Shown here: in pieces, positions 3,736-29,557 of the stretch
Position numbering within the stretch: position 1 is the first letter of the stretch
How the letters are laid out: each line of letters opens with the position of its first letter
IMG/VR virus record: IMGVR_UViG_3300028550_000832
Span: 1 to 29,557 of that record
Strand: one strand, 5' to 3'
Source of the DNA: a virus
DNA: 29,557 bases
The notes under the pieces: generated by a model
The model's input: the letters and a program-made list of their open reading frames with translations, nothing else
The model's database searches: none
What the model was told of the DNA's origin: nothing
Made by a program: the position numbers and the translations under genes

Positions 3736-3959
3736 TTCTTTACTCGTTCTTGGTCTTGTTTATAACTCATAAATGTAAAAGCTTGTTCAATACTTAACTT
3801 CCCTGCTTCCTCAATCTTTAATACATCCTCATTGCATAAGCTCATTAGGATTGAATACCAACCCCACTTTTTACCGAATGATTGCTGCTTTTGGTTTCCT
3901 CCCCCACCTGAATTGAGGTTAGCAAATCTGTCAAGTAGTCGTTTCCGATACTCCAAAAA
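3732..3959 (-). CDS. Tail chaperone T-extension, made by -1 frameshift from the upstream gene
   Basis: This frame has no ATG at its 5' end. The first start-like codon is a TTG at 3956 inside a U9 run. It is best read as the -1 continuation of the 4447-3845 gene. Slippage at the U run gives a fusion of about 238 residues: roughly 163 from the upstream frame, then LEYRKRLLDRFANLN, a Gly-rich linker, and a helical domain (KKWGWYSILMSLCNED, then SIEQAFTFMSY). The W-x-W-Y-x-x-L...F-x-x-Y pattern is typical of T domains of tail assembly chaperones, which bind the tape measure protein. This is the same arrangement as the lambda G/GT pair, also a -1 shift. The stop overlaps the next gene's start. Confidence 0.75.
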   Translation of the reverse strand, partial: FLEYRKRLLDRFANLNSGGGGNQKQQSFGKKWGWYSILMSLCNEDVLKIEEAGKLSIEQAFTFMSYKQDQERVKK

Positions 3960-4447
3960 AAAAGGATAGCAGAATTAACCACATTAGCTTTTAACTTCTT
4001 CTTAAATAACCTAGAGCGTTCTTCTAAGTCTGCATCGTAAGCCTCAATGCTATACTTTCCGTTAGCTTCTTTATCGATAGGTCTATACAATATAGCCATA
4101 ATCAAATGCAAGTTCTCGTTAAGGTCTTGACATAACGTGTCCAAGTCTCCAAACTCAGCCGTACTAATATCCGATAGGTTAGGTATGAACCCATATTTAA
4201 CATTATCTATCTTAACGAACTGGTGTAAACCTTCGCTTGCTTTCGATAGACTTAAAAGCTTACCATATACATCGTTTAAGTCTCCTAGCTTAACCTTATC
4301 AATAGTAGTTCTATCAATTGATGTAAGTAGTTCAATCGTTTGCTTTTGTCGCTCTAAATCGTTGAGAGGTGTTGCCTCTAACTTTGTCAAAGCTTGCAGT
4401 TGCCCTAATGTAATGTCACTTAAGTCTGTTGGTATAATTAACTTCAT
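3845..4447 (-). CDS. Tail assembly chaperone (G-like)
   Basis: A 200-residue, mostly helical protein with an ATG at 4447 and an AT-rich leader. The N-terminus (MKLIIPTDLSDITLGQLQAL) is typical of tail assembly chaperones in Bacteroidetes phages. It should be the abundant chaperone that coats the tape measure protein during tail assembly. The last 36 residues after the U9 run overlap the T reading frame and are Ser-rich and low in information, as expected if the shifted product is the conserved one. It opens the tail operon, just after a terminator and a candidate promoter. Confidence 0.75.
   Translation of the reverse strand: MKLIIPTDLSDITLGQLQALTKLEATPLNDLERQKQTIELLTSIDRTTIDKVKLGDLNDVYGKLLSLSKASEGLHQFVKIDNVKYGFIPNLSDISTAEFGDLDTLCQDLNENLHLIMAILYRPIDKEANGKYSIEAYDADLEERSRLFKKKLKANVVNSAILFFWSIGNDYLTDLLTSIQVGEETKSSNHSVKSGVGIQS
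3955..3964 (-). promoter_or_regulatory. Slippery site for -1 programmed frameshift
   Basis: On the mRNA strand the sequence is C-U9-GG. In the zero frame it reads CUU UUU UUU UGG. A one-base backward slip gives UUU UUG GAG and enters the T frame at 3959. It lies about 120 bases before the zero-frame stop. Homopolymer U runs are known slippery sequences. I did not identify a clear downstream stimulatory structure, apart from a G-rich stretch (GGTGGGGGAGG) about 55 bases later. Confidence 0.7.
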
Positions 4448-4454
4448 ATACTAT

Positions 4455-4484
4455 TAAATATAAATATCTTAGTTTTGTACCAAA
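4455..4484 (-). promoter_or_regulatory. Candidate promoter of the tail operon
   Basis: TTTG at 4484-4481 is followed after 18 bases by TATATTTA at 4462-4455, a relaxed form of the Bacteroidetes TTTG-N19-TAnnTTTG promoter. It sits directly after the cassette terminator and just upstream of the chaperone start at 4447, so the leader would be very short. The -7 element is weak. Confidence 0.4.
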
Positions 4485-4495
4485 TTATTAGGCAT

Positions 4496-4522
4496 AAAAA
4501 AAGCCCTCCGAATGGAGAGCCT
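4496..4522 (-). terminator. Rho-independent terminator after the 4726-4544 cassette
   Basis: In transcript orientation AGGCTCTCC, loop ATTC, GGAGGGCT, then T7. The stem is GC-rich with one G-U pair and is followed directly by the T run. It separates the cassette gene from the tail operon. Confidence 0.85.
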
Positions 4523-4543
4523 TAGTGGAGGGAATTTATTTAC

Positions 4544-4726
4544 TTAATTAAAATATTCTTTTTTCCATAAATCCATATATATAGATTCATATTTTAAAGC
4601 ATCCAACTCACAATCAAACTGAATTGATAAAGTACCGTCTTCGTTGTAAGTAGTTTTAGAATCCCACATTATAGTGATGTAGATTGTTTCGTTTATCGCT
4701 TGGCTTAAATTGTGTAAAGTTCTCAT
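4544..4726 (-). CDS. Small moron-like gene, unknown function (60 aa)
   Basis: The frame is open from an ATG at 4765, but that codon lies inside the promoter spacer, upstream of any transcript. The next ATG at 4726 (MRTLHNLSQ) is the supported start and gives 60 residues. The product is acidic and has no signal peptide or membrane segment. Its middle (WDSKTTYNEDGTLSIQFD) looks like a beta hairpin and the C-terminus like a helix. I do not recognise the family. It sits between the large terminase and the tail operon with its own strong promoter and its own terminator, the layout of a moron expressed independently of the phage programme. Its promoter is nearly the same as that of the plus-strand gene at 23012-23308. 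Confidence 0.7.
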   Translation of the reverse strand: MRTLHNLSQAINETIYITIMWDSKTTYNEDGTLSIQFDCELDALKYESIYMDLWKKEYFN

Positions 4727-4749
4727 ATCGTTTCTCGTTTTGTTCCCTA

Positions 4750-4780
4750 CAAAGATAGATAACATTTCGGTACTACCAAA
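4750..4780 (-). promoter_or_regulatory. Strong Bacteroidetes-type promoter of the 4726 cassette
   Basis: TTTG at 4780-4777, 19-base spacer, TATCTTTG at 4757-4750, followed by TAGGGAACAAAA. This is an excellent match to the known Bacteroidetes consensus TTTG-N19-TAnnTTTG. The -7 element and the following GGGAACAAAA are shared with the promoter at 22960-22990. Confidence 0.85.
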
Positions 4781-4811
4781 TCTAATTGTGTTTATTTATG
4801 ACTTAATTAAA

Positions 4812-6122
4812 TTACCTAACATTATAACGACCAATCTTAGGCTTCACTTCGTAAAACATTCTCATAGCTAAAGCATCTGAGTAATCAGGTGAGCGACCGA
4901 TAACCGCTTTTACTACATCTTTAGGAACTATCTTTAGCTTTCCGTCCTTGTCTATGTCTTTGGACCTTACTTGCTCTAGTTCTTCTGTAATTAGTTTACG
5001 CTTATCAGCATCAATTACACTTATGCCAATCTGACCCTTATTAATTAAATCAGCTAACTTATAATAGCATTGAGTTTTCAAGTTCTGGTAATTCTCTTTC
5101 TTGATCGGTGTTGAATTATTAATAAAGCCTTTGCACCTGAGTACATCTTGAAGACCACCACCTACACCATCACTATCCACAATGATATTACTTAGCTTTA
5201 CTTGATGGTTCTTTTGAAGCTCTCTAATATACTCAGCAAGTTCTGTAATAGTATTCTTGTCAAAGGTCTTAATCATTACCACCTGCAAGCCTTCGAACAA
5301 CATCACAACGGATTTATCCTCCCCCATACGTGCAACATCGCAGCTAATATACTTCTCTCCTTCTGTTCCCTTGTTGGTGAATAGGTTTAAAATAGAATCG
5401 TAATCAATTAAAGAATCTGAATCTGCGTCATATTCCCAGTTACCGAAGAGCAATCTTTGCTTTGAAACTTCATCTAATTTGCTCAGTTGCTTTTCGTAAT
5501 GCTTCGATATAAATTGATTGTCAGTTACCAATGAAGGAACGAACTTTCTGTAATCTTTTAATGTACCTAATTGAGCTGGCTTATAATATTCTGTATAAAC
5601 CCAATTCTTAGCAGGGTTACAAGTCATTAGAAGCTTTGGAATGATTGCAAAGTCATCTAGTTTATATCTGATTCTAGACTGAACTACATTAATAGCTTTG
5701 TGCGTGACTTGATTTGCTTCATCAATAAATGCTCCTGTAATTTCCAATGAACCTAAACTATCAAAATTCCTATCAGATGGATATAAGAACAAATCCTTTA
5801 GTATAATCTCTGAACCGTTCTTAAATGTAACAATGTTACTCGATCCGTTGAAAGTATAATGTTCTCCACTCTTTAAACCCCAAGCACCGCAAACTTCAAA
5901 GAACGTGTTTAAGGTAGTCTTCTTTAAAGCATCTAACTTAGAACGCCCCATTAGGTATCTAGTCTTAGGATAACGCAAACACATAGTCACAAGCCAAGCA
6001 GAACCTACCCAAGACTTCCCACCTCCAGCAGCCCCACCAAATAAAACTTCGTTGGTATGGCCATCGAATAGGAATCTTAAACACTCCTTCTGCTTAGATG
6101 TAAAGTCTGGATTAATTTCCAA
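4812..6122 (-). CDS. terL: Terminase large subunit
   Basis: ATP-driven DNA packaging motor plus headful or cos nuclease. The ATPase domain shows Walker A GGAAGGGKS (29-37) and Walker B with the catalytic Glu in FIDEA (132-136). The C-terminal RNase H-like nuclease shows its acidic residues in SCDVARMGEDKS (D262) and IIVDSDGVGGG (D316/D318), with a late DYSDAL motif near 415. The length of 436 is normal for the family. The start overlaps the 3' end of the small-terminase-like gene by 11 bases. Transcription after it runs into the 4726 cassette region. Portal is not next to it, which is unusual. Confidence 0.95.
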   Translation of the reverse strand: MEINPDFTSKQKECLRFLFDGHTNEVLFGGAAGGGKSWVGSAWLVTMCLRYPKTRYLMGRSKLDALKKTTLNTFFEVCGAWGLKSGEHYTFNGSSNIVTFKNGSEIILKDLFLYPSDRNFDSLGSLEITGAFIDEANQVTHKAINVVQSRIRYKLDDFAIIPKLLMTCNPAKNWVYTEYYKPAQLGTLKDYRKFVPSLVTDNQFISKHYEKQLSKLDEVSKQRLLFGNWEYDADSDSLIDYDSILNLFTNKGTEGEKYISCDVARMGEDKSVVMLFEGLQVVMIKTFDKNTITELAEYIRELQKNHQVKLSNIIVDSDGVGGGLQDVLRCKGFINNSTPIKKENYQNLKTQCYYKLADLINKGQIGISVIDADKRKLITEELEQVRSKDIDKDGKLKIVPKDVVKAVIGRSPDYSDALAMRMFYEVKPKIGRYNVR

Positions 6123-7317: not shown

Positions 7318-7681
7318 ATCCTGCAAGTACTTCTCTTAGTTCCTTAATCGTTTGAGCTACACAAGAACCACATTTAGACGCTTGCTTATTCATTCCGAAG
7401 ATTTCATTGTATAGTTTGGTTACTCCGATGTTATCGTTGTGCGTAATCTTATCTGTACCTATTTGATTTAGTAATCGTTTCAATATAGATAGTTGGTCTT
7501 TTGTAAGGTCGTTCTCACGTTCCCAGTTACCTACTGGACATCTAGTAAATGCTATCTTTGCTTTGATCTTCATAAAGCAACCGCACTTCTTGCATTGGCT
7601 TAAAGACTTACGAAAGTGAGGGCAGGCGTTGCATAGACTTATCCTCTCATTGTAAGTTCTATCACTTGTCTTTAACCTCAT
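7307..7681 (-). CDS. Zinc-finger protein of a Bacteroidetes phage family
   Basis: A 124-residue protein with an N-terminal four-cysteine cluster, CNACPHF and CKKCGCF, followed by TRCPVGNWE, and a C-terminal SKCGSCV preceded by TKLYNEIFG. The two parts resemble a zinc ribbon and a helical module that I have seen together in Flavobacteria phages next to the sigma-like gene. The overlap with both neighbours (20 bases upstream, 11 downstream) shows one operon. It may help the sigma factor or bind nucleic acid. Function is unknown. Confidence 0.65.
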   Translation of the reverse strand: MRLKTSDRTYNERISLCNACPHFRKSLSQCKKCGCFMKIKAKIAFTRCPVGNWERENDLTKDQLSILKRLLNQIGTDKITHNDNIGVTKLYNEIFGMNKQASKCGSCVAQTIKELREVLAGYED

Positions 7682-8174
7682 CCCTTATGCTAGTTCTAAC
7701 AGATTTTATAGTCTTAAATATAGAAGTTGGTGAGATGTTCATTGCTTTAGCTAAACCTCTTACAGTTCCTTTACCATCGTAATATATGCTGAATATAATT
7801 TGATCGTAGAAATGATGCTTACTTAATGCCTTCGCTATATTAGTAAGTCTATATTCTTTTATCTCTTGGCTATCATCAACAACGTCTTCTAGATTTGCAA
7901 TGATTGCATTCTCATCTAATAGCTTAGGGTGGTGCTTACGTTGAAATAGTGAAGTAGTAGAACGATATTGGTTCATCATTACCCTAGCAAGCCAGAACAT
8001 CAGATGTCCATTCTCAACAATAGACTTTAATTTAACTTCGTCATACTCCAGAAGAATAATATATATCTCTTGTGTAAGGTCCTGAGCATCTATGTCATTG
8101 CCTTTAGTAATTTTAAAAGCTAAATCATAAATATCTTTATAACGAGCTGCAATATCTTCTCTTAATGTTACCAT
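7662..8174 (-). CDS. Small sigma-70 family (ECF-like) sigma factor
   Basis: A 170-residue protein with the two conserved parts of an ECF-type sigma factor. Region 2 is seen around AQDLTQEIYIILLEYDE and FWLARVMMNQYRS. A C-terminal region 4 helix-turn-helix is seen at about 130-165 (GTVRGLAKAMNISPTSIFKT). Located between the early region and the packaging and structural genes, it probably directs host RNA polymerase to late phage promoters. No anti-sigma gene is visible. The promoters it would use are not proven; see the shared AT-rich leaders at 22914-22933 and 25491-25510. Confidence 0.75.
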   Translation of the reverse strand: MVTLREDIAARYKDIYDLAFKITKGNDIDAQDLTQEIYIILLEYDEVKLKSIVENGHLMFWLARVMMNQYRSTTSLFQRKHHPKLLDENAIIANLEDVVDDSQEIKEYRLTNIAKALSKHHFYDQIIFSIYYDGKGTVRGLAKAMNISPTSIFKTIKSVRTSIRDEVKDK

Positions 8175-14846: not shown

Positions 14847-15047
14847 TTAGTTTTTAGCGATTGAATAAACAACTTCGTTAAATAGTATTTTGTAATTAAC
14901 TGTGTTATCATCTCCTGTGACTATTAGTATATGTGCCGATTTACCTAAGTGTACATTATTATACAATGCGTTCTTTGCAAGTTCGTGCGATGCGTATTCA
15001 GTTGATGTATCTAAACCTAAATTTTCTTGAATCAATAAATATCTCAT
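14847..15047 (-). CDS. Small protein (66 aa), unknown
   Basis: ATG at 15047 behind the A-rich leader AAAACTAAAACT. A mixed alpha/beta product (MRYLLIQENLGLDTSTEYAS, then AHILIVTGDDNTVNYKI). No family recognised. Second gene of the first early operon. Confidence 0.6.
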   Translation of the reverse strand: MRYLLIQENLGLDTSTEYASHELAKNALYNNVHLGKSAHILIVTGDDNTVNYKILFNEVVYSIAKN

Positions 15048-22905: not shown

Positions 22906-22913
22906 AATATATG

Positions 22914-22933
22914 TTTCTTTTATATAAATATAA
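22914..22933 (-). promoter_or_regulatory. Shared AT-rich leader element, copy 1
   Basis: TTATATTTATATAAAAGAAA in transcript orientation, identical over 20 bases to 25510-25491. It lies just before the spike-base start. A TATATTTA core resembles the candidate tail promoter at 4455-4484, so it may be a late promoter element or a translation leader. Confidence 0.4.
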
Positions 22934-22959
22934 ATAAACTTGTTTTGTTTTTATTTTTA

Positions 22960-22990
22960 TTTGGTAATGTCGAAAATTGAACTATCTTTG
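22960..22990 (+). promoter_or_regulatory. Strong Bacteroidetes-type promoter of the plus-strand cassette
   Basis: TTTG at 22960-22963, 19-base spacer, TATCTTTG at 22983-22990, then TAGGGAACAAAA. The same spacing, -7 and downstream bases are found at 4780-4750 on the other strand; the spacer starts GTA in both and shares CGAAA. Confidence 0.85.
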
Positions 22991-23011
22991 TAGGGAACAA
23001 AAAACAAAACC

Positions 23012-23308
23012 ATGGAATTGATACAATTTAAAAATAGCGAAGAACGAGAATCAATGTTATACGAACTTCTTAACGTTCTAAAGCTTAACGCTCACTTTGA
23101 AAGCTTCAACGATAGCGTATTTTCTTATTATTTAGAAGCAGATGATTTGAATTACGAATTTAACTTTATAACAGATGACTTTCTACTTAAAGAAATGACT
23201 GTGCAGGAGCTACTAGGATTAAAAGATGTCGGGTATTTTAGTAGTACTATAAGGTCTGAGATGTATAGTGAAGTAAAAGGTACTAAAACTTTTAGGTTAA
23301 TACCTTAA
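23012..23308 (+). CDS. Plus-strand moron gene, unknown function (98 aa)
   Basis: The only gene on the plus strand, lying against the flow of the structural operon between the major tail protein and the spike base. ATG at 23012, about 15 bases after the expected transcript start, with an A-rich leader. The product is acidic and soluble: a helical start (MELIQFKNSEERESMLYELL, NVLKLNAHFESFND), a central strand region (YYLEADDLNYEFNFITDDF) and an end with KGTKTFRLIP. No family recognised. Its own promoter and terminator, and expression opposite to the late genes, mark it as a moron. A host-takeover or anti-defence role is conceivable but not shown. Confidence 0.75.
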   Translation: MELIQFKNSEERESMLYELLNVLKLNAHFESFNDSVFSYYLEADDLNYEFNFITDDFLLKEMTVQELLGLKDVGYFSSTIRSEMYSEVKGTKTFRLIP

Positions 23309-23319
23309 AAATTAAGCAC

Positions 23320-23349
23320 AAAAAAAGCCCCTACTTACGCAGGGGCTTT
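23320..23349. terminator. Bidirectional terminator
   Basis: A 9-bp perfect stem AAAGCCCCT, loop of 8, AGGGGCTTT. A T7 run on the minus strand ends the capsid/tail transcript coming from 23946; a shorter T-rich tail on the plus strand ends the 23012 gene. Confidence 0.85.
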
Positions 23350-23367
23350 ATATTAAAGTATTATTAT

Positions 23368-25490: not shown

Positions 25491-25510
25491 TTTCTTTTAT
25501 ATAAATATAA
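25491..25510 (-). promoter_or_regulatory. Shared AT-rich leader element, copy 2
   Basis: TTATATTTATATAAAAGAAA in transcript orientation, identical to 22933-22914, placed just before the scaffold-like gene. It sits in the only gap between the protease and the scaffold. Confidence 0.4.
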
Positions 25511-25513
25511 TTA

Positions 25514-27695: not shown

Positions 27696-27835
27696 AACTC
27701 TTTCAGTTGTTTATAAGCTTGTTTAATTGTCTTAGGATATTCGTACTTACCAAATGCAATTTCATTCTGTTTATTAGGCTTTATTTTGCCTTGACAAATA
27801 CCTTTAATTACTTCGTTTATCATTTCCAATAGCAT
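27680..27835 (-). CDS. Small protein (51 aa) between tail hub and tape measure genes
   Basis: ATG at 27835 overlaps the end of the hub-like gene by 16 bases, and its end overlaps the tape measure start by 16. The product (MLLEMINEVIKGICQGKIKP, then FGKYEYPKTIKQAYKQLKEL) is basic and helical. The double overlap supports it. A tail assembly helper is possible; the family is not recognised. Confidence 0.6.
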   Translation of the reverse strand: MLLEMINEVIKGICQGKIKPNKQNEIAFGKYEYPKTIKQAYKQLKELWQKK

Positions 27836-29557
27836 TTATTATTTATATAAGTAAGACCTTGAGATTCGCAGCACTTAGCCGTTACGGAAACGCTTGAGCC
27901 TCCTGTATCAACCCATGAAGTAGAACCATCGTCATTATAAGAGTTTGGTGTTATTGAACAAACATCTGTATTAGGAGCATCAACAATCTTTAGAAGTTCT
28001 ACCTTCGTAGAATTACCTACACCCATTGCATGACTGTCAATCTTGTTAATTAAATAGTATGAATCTTTAACGAATATCTTATCGTTATACTTAAATGAAG
28101 AAATATCTAAAGAATCTAAATAGAAATAAGCACTCAAAATTCTAGCACTATTATTGTAGATGTTATTTAGTGAGTCACTCCAGAAATCGTTGTAGACATC
28201 GTTACCAGTTTGTGTCTGCACAAGGTCAGATTGATACTTAACTATTCCACTTTTAAATCGTATATCGCGATCCGTAGATACAACCATATAACCTGCCATT
28301 GAGTAGTGATGGCAGAAAGGATATGCAGTTCTAGTTGAATAAGTATTAGCAGGTTCATTCATCAACTTGAAATAGGACGAAGCAGGCAAACTTTTTAGCC
28401 CTGAGTAATAGAATAGTTTTGGCTTAGTTGTAACCGCTTCAACTTCTCCGTTATTGTATTTAAAATGCTTGGTAATAAACATTCTATTGTTAGGTATCTT
28501 ATCAGGAACAAAACTTGAAAATATTGTTGGCACTTTCAGTTCTCCACTTCCGAAATCTCCGTAGAACGGGAACGTATATGAATTGTAGATTGTACCTTTT
28601 TGATCTAACCACTCAACCCCCGTCTTATCCTTATCAGCTAAGTCAGTTAAATTAATACTATCCTTTCTAAATCTAGAAGTTGGTTCTATTAATATGCTCT
28701 TAGAAGTGTCTAATTTATCAGTCCAATCTTTAGAAGTTCCTGCATCTCTATAATCTTGTATTGGTTCTATATTCAATTGATTAGTAATAGTCTTGTCACT
28801 CTCAACGATTAGATTATAACGTGAGAATATAGACTTGATAAAATCAACTTGCTTATCTTTTGATAGTAGACTATTTCCTGAACCTAAATCTACTGTTCCA
28901 CCTTCAACCGCAGGAGGTACAGATACAAGTTGTACGAATGAATCGTAAACTACTGAATTAATTGTTGCCGAAGTTTTGAAACTAAGTACAGAACCAGCAT
29001 CCGAATTAACCTTAACCTTAACTACATCTGTTGAGGCTAAAGTTATAACCGATTCCTCACTTGTAAATACAGTAGTTCCGCCACTAGGTAAGAAAGTGAT
29101 AGGAATAACAGACGAAGTCACTCCGTTAATTTCAAATAATACAAATACATCTACAAGAGTAGAACCAGAACTATCAACAACTACCTGAACCCTAAACTCA
29201 TAATCACCGTCAGATGGTGCAGTATATGCTTTTGTACTTGTATTAAAATCTCCATTAACATCGTAGAAACCGCTTGCAGAAGTTTCATTATTAAAGTTAA
29301 GTATAGCAGCCCCACCAGATACGGCTTGATTTGAGTTCATACCAACTTTAAACCCTCCTGTATTATCCGTAACCGAACCATCAACTTCACCGCCTAAAGT
29401 CATATATTGACTAGTGAAGAATGTGCTATTTAAAAACGTTGAGCTTATTGTATATCCTGCATCCTCAAAAATCACATCAAGTAAAGCTTTAAGCTTAATC
29501 GAAGGCTTCAAATCTCTTGGCTTAATAGCACCTGCATCTGTATTTAAAGTGTCACCA
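27820..29557 (-). CDS. Tail hub/baseplate-like protein, 5' end cut by the window edge
   Basis: The frame is open to base 29557 without a start; a TTG at 29511 is not a credible start because homology to the left-end gene continues past it (DTLNTDAGAIKPRDLKPSIK). 578 residues are seen. Order: conserved block (SLLDVIFEDAGYTISS-like, STFFTSQYMTLGGEVDG), a C1q/TNF-like jelly roll (about 65-200, with FYDVNGDFNTSTKAYTAPSD, DYEFRVQV), a second conserved block (YDSFVQLVSVPPAVEGGTVD), then about 360 residues of tail-hub pattern (SIFSRYNLIVESDKTITNQL) and a Cys-rich end (CCESQGLTYINNKCYWK). Joined to the 1212 gene it would give about 750 residues. Confidence 0.75.
   Translation of the reverse strand, partial: GDTLNTDAGAIKPRDLKPSIKLKALLDVIFEDAGYTISSTFLNSTFFTSQYMTLGGEVDGSVTDNTGGFKVGMNSNQAVSGGAAILNFNNETSASGFYDVNGDFNTSTKAYTAPSDGDYEFRVQVVVDSSGSTLVDVFVLFEINGVTSSVIPITFLPSGGTTVFTSEESVITLASTDVVKVKVNSDAGSVLSFKTSATINSVVYDSFVQLVSVPPAVEGGTVDLGSGNSLLSKDKQVDFIKSIFSRYNLIVESDKTITNQLNIEPIQDYRDAGTSKDWTDKLDTSKSILIEPTSRFRKDSINLTDLADKDKTGVEWLDQKGTIYNSYTFPFYGDFGSGELKVPTIFSSFVPDKIPNNRMFITKHFKYNNGEVEAVTTKPKLFYYSGLKSLPASSYFKLMNEPANTYSTRTAYPFCHHYSMAGYMVVSTDRDIRFKSGIVKYQSDLVQTQTGNDVYNDFWSDSLNNIYNNSARILSAYFYLDSLDISSFKYNDKIFVKDSYYLINKIDSHAMGVGNSTKVELLKIVDAPNTDVCSITPNSYNDDGSTSWVDTGGSSVSVTAKCCESQGLTYINNKCYWK
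28873..29557. repeat. Right copy of a diverged direct repeat at the window ends
   Basis: Partner of 1-691 in the same orientation. The window stops exactly where both copies are still identical (GTGTCACCA), which suggests an assembly break at an allelic site or a terminal overlap rather than a natural end. Confidence 0.9.

Follow-up and report, generated by a model that had tools for sequence, protein, structure and literature searches.

Small accessory genes behind a repeated promoter at two slots in the genome of a marine phage

The slot beside terL and its second copy

The sequence examined, here called the window, is the whole of IMG/VR record IMGVR_UViG_3300028550_000832, 29,557 nt from a marine phage. 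The named phages closest by terL are Flavobacterium phage 11b (56%) and Cellulophaga phage phi10:1 (52%). The context downstream of terL was inspected in both and holds no slot of the kind described below; the portal gene is directly next. The ends of the record (1-691 and 28873-29557) overlap at about 90% identity, inside a single gene whose two parts are ORFs 1-1212 and 27820-29556. A circular or circularly permuted genome is probable, with two strain variants present in the overlap.

In the window a small gene with its own control sequences separates terL from a conserved late gene, and a second insert with the same promoter lies some way off on the other strand. The features are as follows.

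4812-6122, minus strand: terL, the terminase large subunit gene and upstream flank of slot 1 (phrog_2, E 5.6e-35)
4448-4811, minus strand: slot 1, everything that lies between terL and the 200-aa late gene
4777-4780, minus strand: -33 element, TTTG, from the sequence and the consensus TTTG/TANNTTTG
4750-4757, minus strand: -7 element, TATCTTTG, from the sequence and the consensus
4738-4749, minus strand: leader TAGGGAACAAAA, common to both slots and to several phage lineages by sequence comparison
4544-4726, minus strand: 60-aa cassette gene, 60 codons from the ATG at 4726, stop TAA at 4546-4544
4500-4523, minus strand: intrinsic terminator of slot 1, a 10-bp stem and then a T run (U tract), which stays constant while the ORF changes
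3845-4447, minus strand: conserved 200-aa gene and downstream flank of slot 1 (phrog_32199, no assigned function)
22906-23367, plus strand: slot 2, an insert between the 85-aa and 192-aa genes, its cassette on the strand opposite to both neighbours
22960-23002, plus strand: promoter and leader of slot 2, by sequence match a second copy of the slot 1 promoter
23012-23308, plus strand: 98-aa cassette gene, with orthologues found only at the same slot in loci L111 and L112
23320-23350, no strand assigned: terminator of slot 2, the AAAAAAAGCCCCTACTTACGCAGGGGCTTT region, also found in bare slots

A reading made earlier from the sequence only had described a promoter-led 60-codon gene with its own terminator beside terL. 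That description holds; its coordinates were essentially right and the strand is minus. The slot 1 promoter is TTTG-N19-TATCTTTG, with a 19-nt spacer, on the minus strand. An alternative frame of 73 aa begins at 4765, upstream of the -7 box, and since its start precedes any transcript from the slot 1 promoter the 60-codon start is the likely one. The housekeeping consensus of Bacteroidetes is TTTG/TANNTTTG (PMC6847099), and at both slots the -33 TTTG and the -7 TANNTTTG expected of a sigma-A promoter are exact. The proposal that the slot is active with the host sigma factor therefore stands with respect to the boxes; from these we infer use by that factor.

In slot 2 the TTTG lies at 22960 and the spacing is again 19 nt. 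The 20-mer TATCTTTGTAGGGAACAAAA is exact in both slots, the slot 2 copy occupying 22983-23002 on the plus strand; the 29.6-kb record has these two copies and no others within two mismatches. Together the slots form the longest inverted repeat of the window (4727-4781 and 22959-23013, 55 nt, 78%). Aligned locally against the rest of the window the match scores 53, compared with a maximum of 33 in 100 dinucleotide-preserving shuffles, which bears out the duplication proposed at 22960-22990. The proteins encoded in the two slots are unrelated, as had also been stated, and the sharing of control sequences by both slots agrees with the suggestion of a common expression unit.

Gene content of the two slots in related phages

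The comparison set comprised 80 IMG/VR loci with terL about 71-100% identical, and near relatives for slot 1 were those with a terL protein at least 90% identical. Spacing at slot 1 was counted in the 68 loci that show both flanks. The next gene starts less than 50 bp after the terL stop (a bare junction of 30-45 bp) in 40 of them and at about 130-1420 bp in 28.

The contents of slot 1 are diverse. The 60-aa gene is present in the window and in L034, contig L034/L006 being the only other copy of that gene found. L029 carries two stacked cassettes, each led by a promoter (57 and 57 aa). Single genes encode 56 aa in L032 and 78 aa in L012 and L001; pairs encode 79 and 68 aa in L021 and 61 and 68 aa in L045-L047, whilst in L035 a 97-aa gene is accompanied by a C5-cytosine methyltransferase (Pfam E 8.6e-45). 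In L040, L041 and L051 an 87-aa gene comes first, and behind it lies a second promoter with the terminator immediately after. L038, L039 and L042 are bare, and L036 retains a shortened promoter and the terminator without an ORF. At 4055-4187 of L036 the promoter is apparently fused to the end of terL at a short repeat, GGTAG, a state that looks like a microhomology deletion of an earlier cassette.

Among the slot 1 pairs compared, nucleotide identity is 92-95% for terL, 85-98% for the promoter, 89-97% for the terminator and 90-97% for the downstream gene, whereas full-length ORF identity in the same pairs is near the level of shuffled sequences; the ORF comparison leaves out that of L035, for which the search began at an internal ATG. 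BLASTP among the slot 1 ORFs gave no significant relation, matches being limited to 5-7 residues with E about 1 or worse. Homology reaches past the start codon by a few codons in some ORFs (MRTLHNL and MTTLQNL, for example) and resumes just before the terminator. These ends of homology lie where recombination joints would be expected. Part of the conservation of the slot 1 promoter could be plain vertical descent with terL.

Of 28 related loci, 24 are bare at slot 2, with a junction of 105-116 bp that includes a terminator; L113 and L114, both near relatives, are among them. The 98-aa gene occupies this slot in the window, L111 and L112; L003 has two other genes of 62 and 83 aa behind the same promoter, and L143 yet another gene. 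In the promoter spacer, L029b and L032, which are alleles of slot 1, match slot 2 of the window and L003 with 78-83% identity, more closely than does the window's own slot 1 spacer (70%). This likeness across slots points to a common origin of the slots or to exchange between them.

Conservation extends from terL and the neighbouring genes to the promoter and the terminator, and the ORF between these two is replaced outright, stacked or lost, or the whole unit is absent. A hotspot of gene content had been suggested, to be abandoned if orthologous loci proved invariant; variation is found at both sites. The control sequences are retained in close relatives and the small gene between them differs, which makes the slots places for trying out accessory genes in phages of this kind.

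Could the variable content be an artefact of chimeric metagenome assembly? The relatives are all metagenome contigs and the window has unresolved strain variants at its own ends, but identical states recur across samples (L040/L041/L051, L045-L047, L012/L001 and window/L034 at slot 1, L111/L112 at slot 2), breakpoints fall near the promoter or start codon and the terminator, and both slots behave alike. We regard such an artefact as barely credible.

In a second, more distant clade, with terL about 72% identical, the terL junction likewise carries small genes, here on the opposite strand and preceded by a near-constant promoter. Their products are of 74 (L067), 77 (L081), 103 (L092), 95 (L096/L099) and 93 aa (L098), and their leaders resemble TTTGCACTATAATTA or TTTGCAGTATAATTA. 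As this clade fills the same junction, the hotspot extends beyond the present phage group.

Some slot 1 promoters have a second type of leader, with a hairpin (GTTGCAATGAAGCAAT or ATCGCAATGAAGCGAT), at 6670-6686 of L029, 2378-2394 of L035 and 3366-3382 of L040. The stem varies in a compensatory way, and among the loci compared this leader type occurs only in these slots. A search of Rfam with the L035 leader found no curated RNA, only a sub-threshold match.

Spread and origin of the promoter and leader

The exact 20-mer TATCTTTGTAGGGAACAAAA occurs in 33 viral contigs, and a looser pattern retrieves 90 stretches. A scan of 84,980 genomes from bacteria and archaea (257 Gb), which is the sole basis for judging the frequency of the leader in Flavobacteriia, gave two matches to the 20-mer, in a Gastranaerophilales MAG and in a Clostridium, which belong to unrelated phyla. 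With 33 viral contigs against two bacterial records, the promoter is best described as a phage element that was not taken from host DNA; an origin in host DNA was rejected on these counts, which give no support to recruitment of the unit from the host. Promoter matches returned by blastn in Erwinia, Serratia and Enterococcus phages were at chance level and were discarded.

These counts also bear on whether an ordinary strong host-type promoter might have arisen twice independently, the match reflecting convergence on the consensus together with an A-rich leader that serves translation. The boxes are indeed the consensus TTTG/TANNTTTG, and in F. johnsoniae translation benefits from a leader rich in A (PMC6847099). 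Against this, the shuffles never reached a 20-nt exact match within 55 nt of homology that includes the unconstrained spacer, and the genome collection yielded just the two exact matches in unrelated phyla, as opposed to the 33 viral contigs. The spacer of a promoter is not constrained by the sigma factor. We judge independent origin very improbable.

The same leader precedes small unrelated genes in other phage lineages, examples being genes of 57, 82, 83, 50 and 89 aa with closely similar promoters in L010, L011, L014, L027 and L004, and occurs several times in one 119-kb contig. In L010, L011, L014, L027, L002 and L004 a single promoter (AAATGTTTGTTATTTCAAAAAAAGGTGTATCTTTGTAGGGAACAAAAACA with its close variants) recurs in front of several small genes that are unrelated. 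In Olleya phage Harreka_1, a cultivated flavophage, TATCTTTGTAGGGAACAA precedes a small gene at about 32880.

In sister phages L044, L178, L203, L210, L213, L227, L232 and L241 the sequence TATCTTTGTAGGGAACTAAA lies directly behind the exonuclease gene. In the six whose contigs extend further (L044, L178, L210, L227, L232 and L241) it is followed by a series of orthologues of the window genes downstream of 15047, including replication-type ones that encode a DnaA-C-terminal-like protein and a helix-turn-helix protein. The promoter of the window's own early operon, TATCTTTGAACC, is without the shared leader. The slot units are probably early, a timing that the sequence-only reading had proposed and for which the leader at the head of a replication-type operon in sister phages is indirect support.

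The spacer is kept only within this lineage, its identity to the early operon promoters of sister phages and to those of other lineages being 0.22-0.61. The leader is kept across lineages with differing spacers and therefore probably has a function beyond the -33 and -7 boxes. Might the repeated sequence then be an operator, a phage regulator binding spacer and leader, so that the sequence is conserved because unrelated genes are regulated together and not because the unit is mobile? The retention of TAGGGAACAAAA across such lineages would suit an operator, for which anti-CRISPR loci with an Aca repressor offer a precedent (PMC9410906). However, conservation of the spacer is confined to this lineage, the window's slot genes have no HTH match, and co-regulation does not explain the replacement of ORFs between fixed flanks. 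We consider it rather unlikely that an operator accounts for the repeat, although an operator role and exchange of genes at the slots may coexist. A further idea is that several unrelated Bacteroidetes phage lineages share the early promoter and leader TATCTTTGTAGGGAACAAAA as a recombination handle, allowing integron-like exchange of cassettes between sites and lineages without an integrase; we rate this as unlikely.

Two further observations concern transcription. The sequence TATTTATATTTATATA lies just upstream of two late genes, at 22921-22936 and at 25498-25513 (minus strand), with 0 and 1 mismatch; it is a possible late-promoter motif, but at 3 mismatches it is not enriched above chance. 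A 170-aa protein encoded at 7662-8174 on the minus strand shows weak similarity to sigma-70 region 2 (E 0.0024, below the Pfam cut-off) and is a candidate phage-encoded sigma-like factor.

Mechanism, known systems and possible functions

In our view the insert beside terL is quite probably one of two promoter-led moron sockets, read early by the host and supplied with new genes through recombination in the control sequences on either side. In each, a Bacteroidetes housekeeping-type promoter with a phage-specific leader would drive one or two small accessory genes and a terminator would close the unit. The sockets appear to sit at the boundaries of late-gene blocks, between terL and the 200-aa gene (slot 1) and between the 192-aa and 85-aa genes (slot 2). 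Because the promoter should require no phage factor, the host RNA polymerase would transcribe the units, probably early, and the A-rich leader may favour initiation, as in F. johnsoniae (PMC6847099). Genes would be swapped by homologous or microhomology recombination between co-infecting phages, the conserved promoter and leader and, at the opposite end, the terminator region being the putative homology arms. Neither a recombinase nor a site-specific motif was found tied to the slot junctions.

How do the slots relate to systems already described? In structure they qualify as morons. As in lambdoid and other phages, an extra gene lies between late genes that adjoin in relatives (the junctions are bare in some loci at both sites), and at slot 1 it has, at the level of sequence, its own promoter and terminator. 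They differ in keeping their control sequences when the gene is replaced, and in having a further copy of the promoter elsewhere, on the opposite strand.

Promoter-early stem-loop (PeSL) elements are reportedly mobile regulatory cassettes of T4-type phages, said to have been described by Arbiol in 2010 and Comeau in 2014. PMC4503421 cites PeSL cassettes of T4-type phages. The likeness is that a host-type promoter and a stem-loop terminator form a repeated unit beside small genes of unknown function, with two copies in the window, and that PeSL elements are proposed to mediate gene shuffling between related phages; at both slots genes are replaced between close relatives. Here, in contrast, the promoter is the Bacteroidetes TTTG/TANNTTTG type, and the phage is small and related by terL to Flavobacterium phage 11b. 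There are two fixed sockets among late genes, with promoter and terminator at opposite ends of the swapped ORF. With phages 11b and phi10:1 nearest by terL and a promoter of Bacteroidetes type, the phage does not belong to the T4 type.

Anti-CRISPR (acr) loci likewise place an early-type promoter before different small genes at one position. The window's slots are without the HTH gene of aca type that would share an operon in acr-aca loci; the 60-aa and 98-aa genes stand singly and have no Pfam match. The slots are thus not PeSL by lineage and not acr-aca by content. The antiviral hotspots of P2 and P4 are about 1-5 kb, lie near cos and hold multi-gene defence systems (PMC9122126). They too are small, high-turnover loci between two conserved phage genes, but the slots here mostly measure 0.3-0.6 kb and carry one ORF or two, of 56-100 aa.

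The products would be dispensable, host-specific accessory functions, with defence evasion or host modulation among them; a role in fitness is assumed. The 60-aa protein has no match in PHROGs, Pfam, PADLOC, PDB or phage records, and the 98-aa protein has no significant family match and none in Pfam. AlphaFold models, with mean pLDDT of 61 and 37, respectively, are too weak for use. The 79-aa protein in the slot of L021 belongs to phrog_6004 and occurs in 30 phage contigs, mostly at 36-65% identity and without the slot promoter; one slot occupant at least is therefore an accessory gene with a wide distribution. The 87-aa slot gene of L040 (3396-3656) partly resembles a window early-operon gene at 14847-15047 on the minus strand (44% over 34 aa, E 7.6e-5), and towards the N-terminus it resembles a slot gene of L029. 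On account of these likenesses, the genes of the slots and those of the early region may draw on one pool of small mosaic proteins.

Are the slot genes specifically for host takeover or anti-defence (anti-restriction, anti-CRISPR or similar), as the sequence-only reading had ventured? Small, fast-turnover genes behind an early-type promoter would fit, acr loci and the P2/P4 hotspots offer precedents, and the C5 methyltransferase in the L035 slot, which fits protection from restriction, is suggestive at most. The 60-aa gene, however, has no match in the databases named above, the 98-aa gene none of note, and one methyltransferase does not define the purpose of the slot. We hold this specialised role to be possible and somewhat against the balance of the evidence.

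If the slots are sockets for accessory genes, the promoter serves as a sequence tag for such genes in uncultured marine Bacteroidetes phages. A scan for it lists fast-changing small genes, where counter-defence and host-takeover genes are to be expected. The slots also offer a testable case of single-gene swapping without a dedicated recombinase at the site, in which the control sequences would double as homology arms.
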